This document shows positions 53,456 through 57,872 of a stretch of DNA of 64,000 bases, in pieces. Positions within the stretch are counted from its first letter, which is position 1, and every line of letters begins with the position of its first letter. A program made the translations under genes and the position numbers. Source of the stretch: Streptomyces reniochalinae (GTDB taxonomy: Bacteria; Actinomycetota; Actinomycetes; Streptomycetales; Streptomycetaceae). Where the stretch lies: contig NZ_QOIM01000033.1 of NCBI RefSeq assembly GCF_003323735.1, positions 1 through 64,000 of the forward strand. Direction: 5' to 3'. The notes beneath the pieces were generated by a model. That model searched no databases. It worked only from the letters and a program-made list of their open reading frames with translations, and was not told where the DNA came from.

Positions 53456-53702
53456 GCCCCTATTGTGTCCGCTCCGTGAGCCGGCCAGGACAGCGCACCG
53501 GGGTACGCCGTCCCCGGCGTACCCGACGACAGGCGCACCCGGGGGCGCGCGACGTGCCGCCCGCCCCCTCCGGGGCCCGCCCTGAGGACGCCGCACGCCC
53601 CAGTACGATCACGGCCATGCCGTCGAGCGAACACCCGGGCACGCCGTCCGACCGGGAAAACGGCGTACATGAGCGCTGGGGAAAGCTAGAATGGACAGTT
53701 TG
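53456..53702. other. Intergenic region between dxr and the repeat-preceded gene
   Basis: A gap with no firm gene. It must hold the divergent dxr promoter. Two candidate start codons for the plus-strand gene lie here: ATG 53617, without a clear site, and ATG 53691, with GGGGA at 53678-53682. Both run into the 8-bp array in the wrong frame at the present copy number. Confidence 0.5.
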
Positions 53703-53811
53703 CCGGGAAGCCGGGAAGCCGGGAAGCCGGGAAGCCGGGAAGCCGGGAAGCCGGGAAGCCGGGAAGCCGGGAAGCCGGGAAGCCGGGAAGCCGGGAAGCC
53801 GGGAAGCCGGG
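53703..53811 (+). repeat. Octanucleotide tandem array, 13 perfect copies of CCGGGAAG
   Basis: Thirteen exact copies of the 8-base unit run from 53703 to 53806, with a further CCGGG to 53811. Eight is not a multiple of three, so each gain or loss of a unit changes the frame downstream. The array has no stop codon in any forward frame, and a GTG-started coding region begins 14 bases after it (53825). The minus strand is open too but has no support. Confidence 0.97.
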
Positions 53812-53824
53812 GCGTGGCGCGGAT

Positions 53825-55585
53825 GTGCTCTTCGTGGTGCGGACAGCCACGACACTGCACCGGTTGCTGGACGCCGCTCCGGCGCTGGCGGGCGACCGCC
53901 GCATACGCCCGTACGTGACGCTCGTCCCCGGGTCGGAGTTCGACGCGGACGCACTGGCCGCACTGGAGGGGCTGCGGGCGCTGCAACTGCCGTGGGACGA
54001 GGCGCGCCGACGGCCCTTCGCACTCGTACTGGCGGCTTCGGCGCGGGGCGCCCTGCACCTGTTGCGCGGGCCGCTGGCCCTGCTGCCGCACGGGGCGGGT
54101 TTCGGCAAACGGATGCCTGCCCGATCCGGCGGCGGCCCGCCCCGGGAGGACGGGAGGGACCCGGCGAACGGCCTGCACCCCGAGCAGCTGCTGCGCCCTG
54201 ACGGACGGGCCCTCGCGGCCCTGCACGCGCTCGCCCACCCCAGCCAGCTCGACCGGCTCGCCGCGCATTCGCCGCGCGCCGCCGCCCCCGCCGCCGTCGT
54301 GGGCGATCCGACGCTCGACAGGATGCTGGAGTCCCTGCCGCGCCGGGAGCGGTACCGACAGACGCTGGGTACGGGGCGCCGGCGGCTGGTGGTGGCCGTC
54401 TCCACCTGGGGCGAGGAGTCGTTGCTCGAGCAGCGCCCGCAGCTGCCGCTGCGGCTTGCCACGGAGCTGCCCCACGACGCGTACCAGACGGCTCTGGTCC
54501 TCCATCCGAACGAGCACGCGCGCAAGGAGCGGTTCGGCATCCGCCAGGACTTCACCCCGGAACGGAGGGCGGGCATGCTGCTGCCCCGCCCGTACGAGGA
54601 GTGGGCCGCGCTGCTGGTCGCGGCGGACTGTGTGATCTCCGACCACGGGTCGACAGCGCTGTACGCGGCGGCGCTCGGTCTGCCGGTGGTGAGTGCCTGC
54701 GAGGGCGGGAGTGAACTGCTCGGTGGCACCCCCATGGCGGAGCTGATGGAGGGCGCGCCCAGGCTGGACGAACGGACGCCCTACGAGGAGCAGATGGAGC
54801 GGGTGCTGGCCGGGCACCGGACGGCGACCGTACGGCAGGCGGCGGCGGGTGCCTTCGCCCGGCCAGGGGACGCCCTGCCCCGACTACGGGAACATCTGTA
54901 CGGCCTGCTGGGGCTGGCGCCGCCGCGGGTGCCGGCCGAGCCGGAACCCCTGCCGCTCCCCCACGACGTGGCCCGGCGTTCGCCCGCCCCCTGGGCCTTC
55001 GCCGTGGACGTGGCCCTCGCCGACGCCCCGGCTCACACGGTTCCCCAGGAGCGGGCCGGGGCCCTTCCCACCGTTCGGGTGGTGCGCCGCCCCGTCTCCG
55101 GCCGGCCAGGGGACCACCTGGCGGCCGAGGCCGACTGGGCGGGCCTGCGCCACGTGCAGAGCGCCGGGCTGCTCTACCGGCACATGCGGCAAGAGTCACC
55201 GGCGGGCGAGACCGCGGCAGGAGGGGCACCGACAGGACGGGCTTCGGCGGAAGAGGCTTCGGCGGCGGAGTGGAGCGCCGACGTACTCGCGCGGTATCCG
55301 GGCTGCCGTACGGCCGCGGCGCTCCTCGGTCGGTACCGCTGTGTGGTGCGGGTACGCGGCTGCGGCCTGTTGCACGTCCGGATCGAGCCGGAGGGAGCGC
55401 CGCCCGATCCGGTGGCCGTGGTGTGCGGAGTGCACGCCTGGCTGGCCAAGTGGCGCGGTCCCGTCCGGTCCGGACAGCGGGTCTTGTGCGGGGTGGGCGG
55501 GCAGCGGGCCGTCGCGGTGCTCTCCCCCGTGGAGAACCTCACCCCCGCGGGGGACGCGGTGGACGTGTCCTCACAGTGGTCGTAG
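53825..55585 (+). CDS. Predicted GT-B-like transferase (often misnamed IF-2), start uncertain
   Basis: A 586-residue protein, with a GT-B-like pattern in its middle: VVVAVSTWGEESL, DAYQTALVLHPNEH, then SDHGSTALYAAALGLPVV near residue 272, resembling UDP-sugar epimerase or CDP-glycerol phosphotransferase folds. Close Streptomyces relatives are often labelled translation initiation factor 2, wrongly. The only in-frame start at the current array length is GTG 53825, 14 bases beyond the octanucleotide repeat, with no convincing ribosome binding site; a TAG closes this frame at 53687. Loss of one repeat unit (or gain of two) fuses ATG 53691 in frame; gain of one fuses ATG 53617. It could therefore be phase-variable. 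Its 3' end is partly repeated at 55604-55616. Confidence 0.78.
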   Translation: MLFVVRTATTLHRLLDAAPALAGDRRIRPYVTLVPGSEFDADALAALEGLRALQLPWDEARRRPFALVLAASARGALHLLRGPLALLPHGAGFGKRMPARSGGGPPREDGRDPANGLHPEQLLRPDGRALAALHALAHPSQLDRLAAHSPRAAAPAAVVGDPTLDRMLESLPRRERYRQTLGTGRRRLVVAVSTWGEESLLEQRPQLPLRLATELPHDAYQTALVLHPNEHARKERFGIRQDFTPERRAGMLLPRPYEEWAALLVAADCVISDHGSTALYAAALGLPVVSACEGGSELLGGTPMAELMEGAPRLDERTPYEEQMERVLAGHRTATVRQAAAGAFARPGDALPRLREHLYGLLGLAPPRVPAEPEPLPLPHDVARRSPAPWAFAVDVALADAPAHTVPQERAGALPTVRVVRRPVSGRPGDHLAAEADWAGLRHVQSAGLLYRHMRQESPAGETAAGGAPTGRASAEEASAAEWSADVLARYPGCRTAAALLGRYRCVVRVRGCGLLHVRIEPEGAPPDPVAVVCGVHAWLAKWRGPVRSGQRVLCGVGGQRAVAVLSPVENLTPAGDAVDVSSQWS

Positions 55586-55658: not shown

Positions 55659-57872
55659 TCAGCTCCGCAGCACCCGAGCTCCCGCGCGGGTCTCTATGGC
55701 ACGGGCCGCGGCGCGGCGGTCCGCGGCCGTCTCCGGCTGATGCGTCTCCTCGGCGAGATCGGCCAGCGCGTGCAGCGCCTTGGCTTCGTCGTGGTCGGCG
55801 CCACGGGTGCGGGCGCTCGCGAGTGCACGCTCGTAGAGCGACCTGATGCTGTCCCCGCCACTCCCTCCTGCGAGGTCCGTGAGGTCCGTCGGATCCGTGA
55901 GGTCCCCTCCGCTCGCTCCGGCGGCCTGTTGCAGGGCGCGGGCGAGCTCGTAGGCGGTCAGCCCCGTCATGCGCTCGCGGTCTTGCGCGAGCGCCTCTCG
56001 GTGGGCGGTTTCGAGGAGTTCCGCGGCGCGCTGCGGTGCGCCGTGGTCGGTGAGGGTCTTCCCGAGAAGGTAGCCGAGCAGGAGCACGCCGTAGGCGTTG
56101 CCGATCTGTTCGTGGATGCGGCGGGAGGCGGTGAACTCTTCAACGGCGGCAGCCGTGTCGCCCTCCTCGCGGTGCAGCAGTCCGCGGAACTCGAGCGTGG
56201 AGGCGCGCAGTTTCGGTTCTGCTCGCAGTCCGGCGGCGGCCCTGACGGCGTGGTCGATCTCGACGCGTGCCTGTGCGAGCTGCCCGGACTCCCACAGGGC
56301 GCGGGCCAGTTGGCAGCGCATCCGCGCCTGTGCCGCCAGGTTCTCCGTGCGCTGCGCCGAGGCGAGTCCGGCGCCGAAGGCGTCGATGGCCTCGGCGTGG
56401 TGACGGTGGTCCATGTAGTGGGTCCACAGAGGCTCGCACAGGCCCCAGGCGTCGGCGTCGGCTTCCGGGTCGCCCACCTCGTGTGCCAGGTGGACGCAGG
56501 CGTGCAGCGCGGGGTGTTCGGCGGCCATCCAGCGGGCAGCCTCCGCCTTGTCCCCGAGGGGCACGTCGGGGGCGTACGGCAGGGGCGGAACCGGGTCGGC
56601 GAAGCGCATCCGGCCCCCCGCGACCAGCGCGTCGGCGCGTTCGGCCTGCCTGCGGTACCAGCGCACCACCCGCCGGTGCGCCGCCGCCACCTCTCCCGGT
56701 CGGCCGTCGCGCCGGGCACAGCGCTGCGCGTGGGCCCGCAGCAGGTCGTGCATGCGGAGGCGTTCGGCCGCATGCGGGACCGCGCCGTCCCGCTCGTCGC
56801 CGCCCTCCCAGAGTGCGACGAGCCGGGCGTCCTCCAGCTCCCCCAGTGCGTCGTAGCCGGTGTCGATGTCCTCGGCGCCGAGGAGGGCGACGGCGGAGGC
56901 GGCCGTGAAGGACGGCCCCGGGTGGGCGGCCAGGAGCCGGTAGAGGCGGGCCGCCGGTGCGGTCAGTTCGCGGTAGGCGGCGTCCCAGACTGCTTCGACC
57001 ACGGGCAGGCCCTCCTCGTCGAGTTCGGTGCGCAGCGCGGCGACGAGCCGCTCGGGGGGCCTGCGCCGGTGCGTGCGCAGGTAGCGCCCCGCGACGTGCA
57101 GTGCGGCGGGCAGCCCACCGCACATGCGGGCGATCTCGGCGACCACCTCGGGGCGGCCTCCCGCGGGACCCGCGCCGTCGACGAGGGTGTGCAGCAGCCC
57201 CTCGGCCGCCGAGCCCGGCAGCGGCCCCAGCGGGACCTCCAAGGCGCCCGTCAGTCCTTCCAGCCGCTTGCGGCTGATGACGACGGCGACCGCGGACGCG
57301 GAGACGGGCAGCAGCGGTTCGGCCTCGCTGGCGTAGGCCACGTTGTCCAGGACGACGACGAGTTCGCGTCCCCAGGTGCGCTGCGCGTACTGGCGGTGCC
57401 GCCCTGCGAGGTCCTTGGCCAGCCAGGGCTCGTGGACGCCCAGGCCGCGCAGCAGGACGGCCAGCACGTCCGACGGGGACACCCCGCCCTCCCGACGGTA
57501 GTCGTCCAGGTCGACGTAGAGGGCGCCGCAGCCGCGTTCGCGGTGGGCCTCGTGTGCCAGCCGCAGCCCCAGCGCGGTCTTGCCGGCCCCGCCGATGCCG
57601 CTGACGGCGACGACCAGCGGGCGCACCACCTCGGACGTCGCGCCCTCCGCCGCGGCGGCTGCCCGCCGCCGTCCGAGTGCCCGCGCCACACCGGCCCGCT
57701 CGTCATCCCGGTCCGCGAAGTGCGCGGACTCGACGGGGAGCTGCACCGGTGGGGCCGCGGGCTCCTCCGGTGCGGCATAGGTGTGGTGGTGCACCGCGCC
57801 GATACTGGCGGCCTGCACCACCGCACCGGCACTGACCTGCCCGTCCACGGTGTTGTGCGTCTGCTCGCTCAC
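55659..57872 (-). CDS. NB-ARC/TPR signalling protein
   Basis: A 737-residue STAND-class NTPase. Residues 7-32 (NTVDGQVSAGAVVQAASIGAVHHH) are a short N-terminal module seen on many actinobacterial STAND proteins. The NB-ARC has Walker A GIGGAGKT (92-99), Walker B LVVVLD (171-176), GGLPAALHVAG and RMHDLLRAHA. Residues about 480-737 are TPR-like helices. It resembles an AfsR-type regulator without the DNA-binding domain. Function could be regulatory or defensive. GTG at 57872 lies 44 bases after the acyl-CoA dehydrogenase stop, so they may be cotranscribed. A short TDPTDLTDL sequence repeat occurs near the C-terminus. Confidence 0.88.
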   Translation of the reverse strand: MSEQTHNTVDGQVSAGAVVQAASIGAVHHHTYAAPEEPAAPPVQLPVESAHFADRDDERAGVARALGRRRAAAAAEGATSEVVRPLVVAVSGIGGAGKTALGLRLAHEAHRERGCGALYVDLDDYRREGGVSPSDVLAVLLRGLGVHEPWLAKDLAGRHRQYAQRTWGRELVVVLDNVAYASEAEPLLPVSASAVAVVISRKRLEGLTGALEVPLGPLPGSAAEGLLHTLVDGAGPAGGRPEVVAEIARMCGGLPAALHVAGRYLRTHRRRPPERLVAALRTELDEEGLPVVEAVWDAAYRELTAPAARLYRLLAAHPGPSFTAASAVALLGAEDIDTGYDALGELEDARLVALWEGGDERDGAVPHAAERLRMHDLLRAHAQRCARRDGRPGEVAAAHRRVVRWYRRQAERADALVAGGRMRFADPVPPLPYAPDVPLGDKAEAARWMAAEHPALHACVHLAHEVGDPEADADAWGLCEPLWTHYMDHRHHAEAIDAFGAGLASAQRTENLAAQARMRCQLARALWESGQLAQARVEIDHAVRAAAGLRAEPKLRASTLEFRGLLHREEGDTAAAVEEFTASRRIHEQIGNAYGVLLLGYLLGKTLTDHGAPQRAAELLETAHREALAQDRERMTGLTAYELARALQQAAGASGGDLTDPTDLTDLAGGSGGDSIRSLYERALASARTRGADHDEAKALHALADLAEETHQPETAADRRAAARAIETRAGARVLRS

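Follow-up and report, generated by a model that had tools for sequence, protein, structure and literature searches.

Switching of gene expression through multi-base repeats is known mainly from animal pathogens. By analogy of mechanism, the nearest known system is neuO of Escherichia coli K1, a phase-variable capsule O-acetyltransferase that, according to the accessible part of the report, is OFF in 42 of 64 genomes, yields a full-length product only if its heptanucleotide copy number is divisible by 3, and has been linked to protection against lytic phage (PMC13001214). The actinobacterial family described below resembles neuO in having a heptanucleotide array in the 5' coding part and, probably, in encoding a surface polysaccharide enzyme. 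In contrast, neuO, as far as that part of the report goes, is a different enzyme, a single prophage gene with one unit (AAGACTC) (PMC13001214), whereas the actinobacterial family displays 43 unit kinds on its tree and a second, in-domain array site. In Haemophilus influenzae, penta-, hepta- and octanucleotide arrays that lie within genes or 5' of them, a likeness to the arrays reported here, are proposed as mediators of phase variation in the available portion of PMC2651432; tetranucleotides, however, dominate there, whereas the present arrays belong to one protein family of soil bacteria and have mostly 7-bp units. Phase variation in Streptomyces, within the open-access literature searched and to the extent of the text it offered, appears only as the G-tract of pgl, the phage growth limitation system of Streptomyces coelicolor (PMC6625227). 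Although phase variation is linked to phage in that system too, pgl is a defence system with a G-tract and no multi-base array, and the same literature, to the same extent, yielded no report of the TagF-like family or its arrays.

Here we analysed a window of 64,000 nucleotides from Streptomyces reniochalinae (contig NZ_QOIM01000033.1, positions 1 to 64,000), in which an array of the octanucleotide CCGGGAAG precedes a gene for a TagF-like protein. We propose that this array is very probably the switch of a candidate phase-variable gene in an actinobacterial contingency family. By slipped-strand mispairing, the stretch that separates the start codon from the conserved domain would reversibly gain or lose units of 8 bp, and this would decide whether the domain is fused to the start in frame. 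Across the family, arrays whose units are not multiples of three, mostly heptanucleotides, would arise at one of two sites, the leader or a loop close to the probable active site, and switching would probably let part of the mycelium alter its surface, for example against phages. Copy-number frame switching, the central claim of the initial annotation, is strongly supported in the family and by a same-species pair of strains, but the start model attached to it, with ATG 53691 and three states, fares less well.

The octanucleotide array and its candidate start codons

As first described, 13 exact tandem copies of CCGGGAAG form a leader array at 53703-53806 of the forward strand, a direct count with which TRF agrees (53702-53811, 13.8 copies). 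An open reading frame of 586 aa, the candidate phase-variable gene, opens at GTG 53825 and extends to 55585 on the same strand, and the reported TAG at 53687 is present upstream in its frame. The gap of 14 bases between array and GTG holds from the TRF end at 53811, but measures 18 from the last full unit. The window contains no other exact array with a unit of 4-12 (at least 22 bp and at least 2.9 copies), the others called by TRF being imperfect, and every (CCGGGAAG)3 match in the whole 7.69-Mb genome, a draft assembly of 70 contigs, falls inside the window array. Under the same criteria, a further 740 kb of this genome gave nine arrays with a maximum of 6.0 copies; five had at least 4 copies, and two of these five had a unit that was not a multiple of three. 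As the sole such exact array in the window, and in view of this genome comparison, the CCGGGAAG array is not a product of chance. Two 6.0-copy arrays, of CACCCCGT (L250, 9319) and CGGCGTC (L256, 9926), lie on contig 22 of the same genome and adjoin the 3' ends of response-regulator-like and uvrA-like genes, names assigned by eye. The nearest named loci to the window are those of S. spirodelae and S. oryzae, the neighbouring dxr protein being 87-89% identical.

Two ATG codons precede the array, at 53617 and 53691, respectively 208 and 134 nt 5' of GTG 53825, as had been stated. When frames were computed for 11 to 15 copies of CCGGGAAG the predicted product changed with copy number: 11 or 14 copies place ATG 53617 in frame (650/658 aa), 12 or 15 place ATG 53691 in frame (628/636 aa), and at 13 copies neither is in frame, ATG 53617 opening a 194-aa other frame. 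These frames agree with the arithmetic of the initial annotation, in which ATG 53691 is brought into frame by losing one unit or gaining two, and ATG 53617 by gaining one or losing two.

To which start the domain is joined was addressed through relatives. A search for TAnnnT-N5-8-RTG 75-100 nt 5' of the array listed 27 leader-array genes, from which L063 and L188 were dropped (another subtype, with the pattern through GTG only), leaving 25 genes with a credible upstream start. Exact TACGAT is present in 18 of the 25 and ATGCC in 20. At the window, a TACGAT box (53604-53609, forward strand), a putative promoter element, lies 7 nt 5' of ATG 53617 (53617-53619, forward strand), and a -10 box 6-7 nt 5' of an ATG is the mark of a leaderless transcript. 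A second -10-like box, TAGAAT at 53687-53692 on the forward strand, lies directly 5' of the array and overlaps ATG 53691; a TAnnnT box in this place, possibly with a promoter function, is found in all 25 related genes, but an ATG overlaps it in only nine. This pattern suggests two states rather than the three initially claimed, with ATG 53691 probably not the conserved start but a codon overlapping a conserved -10-like box. Among array-less relatives, those with the start pattern (L087, L104, L109, L110 and L116) have the equivalent ATG in frame in five of five cases; the pattern was not found in L106-L108 and L119. Because of the TACGAT-N7 pattern and the in-frame equivalents in these five, ATG 53617 is probably a leaderless start, and likelier than ATG 53691. 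If ATG 53617 is the start, the 13-copy allele of the assembly is predicted to be OFF, with the domain out of frame, and alleles of 11 or 14 copies, in which the TagF-like GT-B domain would be fused to it in frame, are predicted to be ON.

It should be emphasized, however, that the starts of some relatives differ from this scheme: the ATG beside the second box is in frame in L083, and so is one at the second box of L038, L090 and L115, where no first start was recognised. Moreover, the first start is in +1 in all three dxr-linked loci (the window, L083 and L084), two of which, L083 and L084, have further starts upstream that are in frame; thus the true start of this clade may differ. Across the 25 genes with a credible start, 13 are in frame and open and 12 are not (8 in +1, 3 in +2, and L197, retained but scored as not open owing to a stop 5' of the array). 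When the start was left unchosen, the domain frame was open back into the array in 46 of 62 leader-array genes, the window included; an ATG or GTG in that frame precedes the array in 29 of these and in none of the other 17, which again include the window, a few of the leader-array loci being cut by a contig end. In the other 16 of the 62 a stop in the domain frame separates array and domain, so frame fusion cannot work in these genes, which may use another mode, namely initiation or coupling. They comprise L166, L169, L063, L195, L202 and 11 others.

Arrays at two sites of an actinobacterial family

A protein search of 61 genomes identified homologues in 30, and 22 of the 30 loci had a tandem array, although in L046, L060 and L061 it amounted to only 3.7-4.6 copies. 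A profile built from 21 members then placed members in 56 of 121 Streptomyces genomes, with at most 12 candidates scored per genome, and a scan of named genome contigs provided a named set, the best 80 of 428 loci, whose genera include Streptomyces, Kitasatospora, Nonomuraea, Actinomadura, Streptoalloteichus, Allokutzneria, Frankia, Nocardia and others. The named set was selected by unbroken matches, is thus biased to intact genes, and was kept out of pooled ON/OFF counts. The profile was split at the loop into N and C parts, both of which were mapped on 198 loci representing 174 unique members. Arrays were sought as exact units of 4-14, imperfect arrays being scored as none, and were classed as leader arrays within 300 nt 5' of the domain or as loop arrays between the LPHGxGxxK and GLxPxxLL stretches.

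As we show here, the arrays occupy two places: a leader array is present in 62 of the 174 unique members, a loop array in 56 and neither in 56; none has both, so that 118 carry an array at one of the two sites. The units of the 129 arrays are of 7 bp in 117, 8 bp in 5, 5 bp in 3, 10 bp in 3 and 9 bp in 1, and 128 of them are not multiples of 3. Arrays of at least 4 copies lie almost entirely (115 of 121) in the 112 kb that reach from position -300 to where the loop ends, which make up 9.4% of the DNA examined, with six in the other 1.08 Mb (binomial p ~2e-109). Units turn over: the tree, which covers 172 of the 174 rows (L247 omitted, L240 too short), requires no fewer than 56 changes to accommodate the 43 kinds. 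Members with a C part of at least 380 aa carry an array in 115 of 144 cases, those with a shorter one in 3 of 30. The initial annotation took octanucleotide phase variation to be rare in Streptomyces, but in this family such arrays are not: in the 121 Streptomyces genomes, 61 of the 95 family members carry one. The S. reniochalinae genome itself has four family members, three with arrays and every unit different, among them a paralogue on contig 14 (L065) with 10.1 copies of GTGCCGG in the loop and its N and C parts in different frames. Judged from these sequences, the family is a two-site, mostly heptanucleotide contingency system in actinobacteria.

The idea of a single conserved locus was rejected, since among the 198 loci, many with short flanks, dxr linkage was found only at the window, L083 and L084. 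Nor is a shared mobile CCGGGAAG element accepted, because family members carry different units. Several arrays are unusual in their own right. L246 (G002:C235) has 109 copies of ACCGCGA upstream, with an array-free loop and N and C parts in different frames; L191 has 31.5 copies of the 8-bp unit AACGCGGG and a first start that is out of frame; and in L114 five GGCAGCG-type arrays follow one another in one leader with short spacers between them. At L200 an extra 9.9-copy array of the heptanucleotide TGCCCAT, perhaps another contingency locus, lies about 985 nt 5' of the domain, outside the family gene.

Natural ON and OFF alleles and their explanation

In the genome-drawn set of 95 members, loop-array genes are broken in 15 of 31 cases, compared with 1 of 34 genes that lack an array (Fisher p 2e-5). 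The breakage places the N and C parts in different frames in 14 of the 15; L054 is broken by a stop. The named set, the best 80 of 428 loci and picked through unbroken matches, has only 2 broken genes among its 25 loop genes, a count that weighs against switching. Sixteen frame-broken loop genes, L054 being left out, were entered in a script that adds or removes one or two units, of which L247, a contig-end fragment, was uninformative. The change of one or two units opened both parts in 14 of the 15 informative genes, the exception being L057, which has a double array. Copy number and state differ between closely related genes: L186 has 4.3 copies and is ON while L221 has 5.3 and is OFF (89.5% DNA identity), L200 with 11.6 copies is ON while L238 with 16.0 is OFF (91%), and other close relatives have 13.3, 4.4 and 6.4 copies at 93-95% DNA identity. 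On the tree, the 16 OFF genes among 55 loop rows need 14 changes; thus the OFF states look recent and scattered.

The most direct comparison is provided by plasmids, six records of which contain a homologue. Those of Streptomyces anthocyanicus NBC_01372 and NBC 01668 are 98.7% identical over 8.7 kb, and across 2,166 columns covering the gene and about 330 nt 5' of its annotated start the only differences are a single substitution and a 56-nt indel of exactly eight GCCGGGA units (9.6 versus 17.6 copies). The N and C parts share a frame in NBC_01372 and lie in two frames in NBC 01668, where the annotation gives a shorter hypothetical protein. A comparison of the array between related strains had been suggested at the outset; copy number indeed differs in this S. 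anthocyanicus family member, but in a loop array, whereas the window locus has a leader array. Of related plasmids, those of S. coelicoflavus NBC_00357 and NBC_00099 are frame-broken and that of Streptomyces sp. SYP-A7193 is intact. Frame-setting arrays account for the shorter gene annotations in three of the five annotated plasmid copies, where the listed gene starts near the array.

It could be argued that the window array is a side product of mutation in non-coding leader sequence, with translation always from GTG 53825 and copy number without effect. GTG 53825 is located at the start of the conserved domain and could be used regardless of the array, a point against frame switching, and transcription from the second -10-like box would start roughly at the array. 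The clustering of arrays at two sites of the family argues otherwise, as does the in-frame upstream ATG in all five array-less relatives with the pattern, and loop arrays, being intragenic, cannot be neutral leaders; this explanation thus appears distinctly unlikely. A leader array that tunes the initiation of transcription or translation through spacing, RNA structure or coupling, and not the frame, has slightly better prospects, albeit still poor ones, and is compatible with a frame switch for some members. The intervening stop in 16 of 62 leader-array genes, which together with the 56 array-free members among 174 also speaks against frame switching, is consistent with such tuning, as are the -10-like box directly 5' of the array and the heptanucleotide promoter arrays reported for hmw1a and hmw2a in the available part of PMC2651432. 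Against tuning, the domain frame is open into the array in the remaining 46 genes, the window included, and all but one of the 129 units are not multiples of three. The alternatives and the frame switch can overlap.

Decay offers another account of the broken genes, which would then be pseudogenes whose deterioration began at the arrays. Further defects do occur in L054 (a 1,032-nt gap in addition to the stop) and in L246 (split elsewhere), and in the L200/L238 pair non-synonymous codon changes nearly equal synonymous ones (44 and 45), the excess at third positions being the weakest there (28, 20 and 57 differences at codon positions 1, 2 and 3). By contrast, of the 15 frame-broken loop genes that were informative, 14 are free of any other defect between the N and C parts, and L138/L219 (8, 9 and 54), L175/L219 and L186/L221 (18, 18 and 63), each pair including an OFF gene, differ mostly at third positions. 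As the OFF states also require 14 tree changes for 16 rows, general decay is very improbable. Least probable of all is that the array reflects faulty assembly, or a mobile repeat that is dispersed and has nothing to do with the gene. The genome assembly is a draft, and (CCGGGAAG)3 also occurs in seven others of 392 Streptomyces genomes, six of the seven without a family member in the 3-kb locus; against this, the 50 place-unit kinds among members keep to fixed places, and the same arrays are found in plasmid records labelled complete. The CCGGGAAG arrays without a family member in the 3-kb locus are L249 (8156-8242, G045:C3), where the array adjoins a run of N, L009, L010, L011, L014 and L015. 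A copy-number frame switch is the reading that we retain, and the natural ON and OFF alleles are ready for its test.

The enzyme and its STAND neighbour

The structure model of the 586-aa protein (pLDDT 90.9, pTM 0.92) indicates a GT-B fold close to that of the teichoic-acid polymerase TagF. The GT-B part, residues 1-366 (53825-54922, forward strand), matches TagF with a Z of 21.7 (3.8 A, 323 aligned residues, 10% identity), UDP-GlcNAc 2-epimerases being nearly tied at up to 20.7 and TarL following at 20.4. The likeness to TagF and TarL is thus one of fold; the window protein differs in its low identity, in the lack of a Pfam match above cut-off and in its extra C-terminal domain. H89 in the LPHGxGxxK motif is invariant across the family and lies at most one residue from the histidine named in the titles TagF H444N and TarL H300N, a placement obtained by arithmetic on the aligned ranges only. 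No match above cut-off was obtained with Pfam for the window protein, L091, L122 and L123, or with NCBIfam for these and two short members. The CDP-glycerol:poly(glycerophosphate) glycerophosphotransferase profile PF04464 was not listed for the window protein, L091 or L122 and scored 11.3 bits for L123, below the gathering score of 22.1, and the UDP-GlcNAc 2-epimerase profile PF02350 gave 20.4 bits for the window protein against a gathering score of 30.6. A profile search of PDB sequences returned only E 0.11 and 0.94. The C-terminal domain, residues 384-586 (54974-55582, forward strand; pLDDT 86.6), matched no PDB fold at E 0.001, a result that does not prove a new fold. Phages yielded no homologue at E 1e-5, and PADLOC (one library of 2023) no match up to E 1 for four family proteins. 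To our knowledge the pgl protein is unrelated to the TagF-like window protein.

In loop-array members the arrays sit in a less confident stretch after the invariant H89 motif, corresponding in the window protein to an array-free loop of lower pLDDT at residues 96-116 (54110-54172, forward strand). Insertions of up to 91 codons (L055) stay in frame, which makes it probable that the loop arrays form a flexible loop at the protein surface, close to the active site. A role in the synthesis or modification of a cell-envelope polymer is probable for the enzyme. A family without a Pfam or NCBIfam match above cut-off in the tested members shows the marks of phase variation across Streptomyces and relatives. 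If the switch operates as proposed, heritable surface variation in mycelial bacteria and its links to phage and to a STAND partner become directly testable.

That partner is a convergent gene of 737 aa at 55659-57872 on the reverse strand, a frequent neighbour of the family, whose product is STAND/NB-ARC-TPR-like, with Pfam and NCBIfam matches below cut-off and AfsR as the nearest. In the named set, the best 80 of 428 loci, 74 of 80 loci have a STAND relative, and 70 of 83 such relatives lie on the opposite strand about 2 kb 3' of the domain start. With the window's STAND protein as query, a match was found in 132 of 198 loci, a count that includes duplicates and many short flanks. At three plasmid loci the two annotated genes, family and STAND, overlap by about 38 nt. 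The PADLOC library of 2023 gave only PDC-S41 (E 0.0062) for the STAND protein, and regulation, sensing or immunity are guesses as to its role. It is possible, although on balance doubtful, that these genes constitute a widespread actinobacterial phase-variable cassette, in which a TagF-like surface-polymer enzyme is repeatedly re-armed with heptanucleotide arrays and usually placed tail to tail with an NLR-like STAND ATPase. If so, each mycelium would be a mosaic hedging its bets between surface or immune states, and bacteria would have a multicellular equivalent of antigen variation in pathogens, coupled to an immune-type sensor.

The N-terminus of the window's STAND protein resembles what we take to be a RHIM/BASS 3-like motif of the kind described in studies of bacterial amyloid signalling. 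The name BASS 3 appears in PMC12261475. A simple RHIM-like pattern occurs in 25 of 69 STAND neighbours, and many loop-type partners have a hydrophobic, Gly-rich N-terminus in place of the RHIM-like motif.
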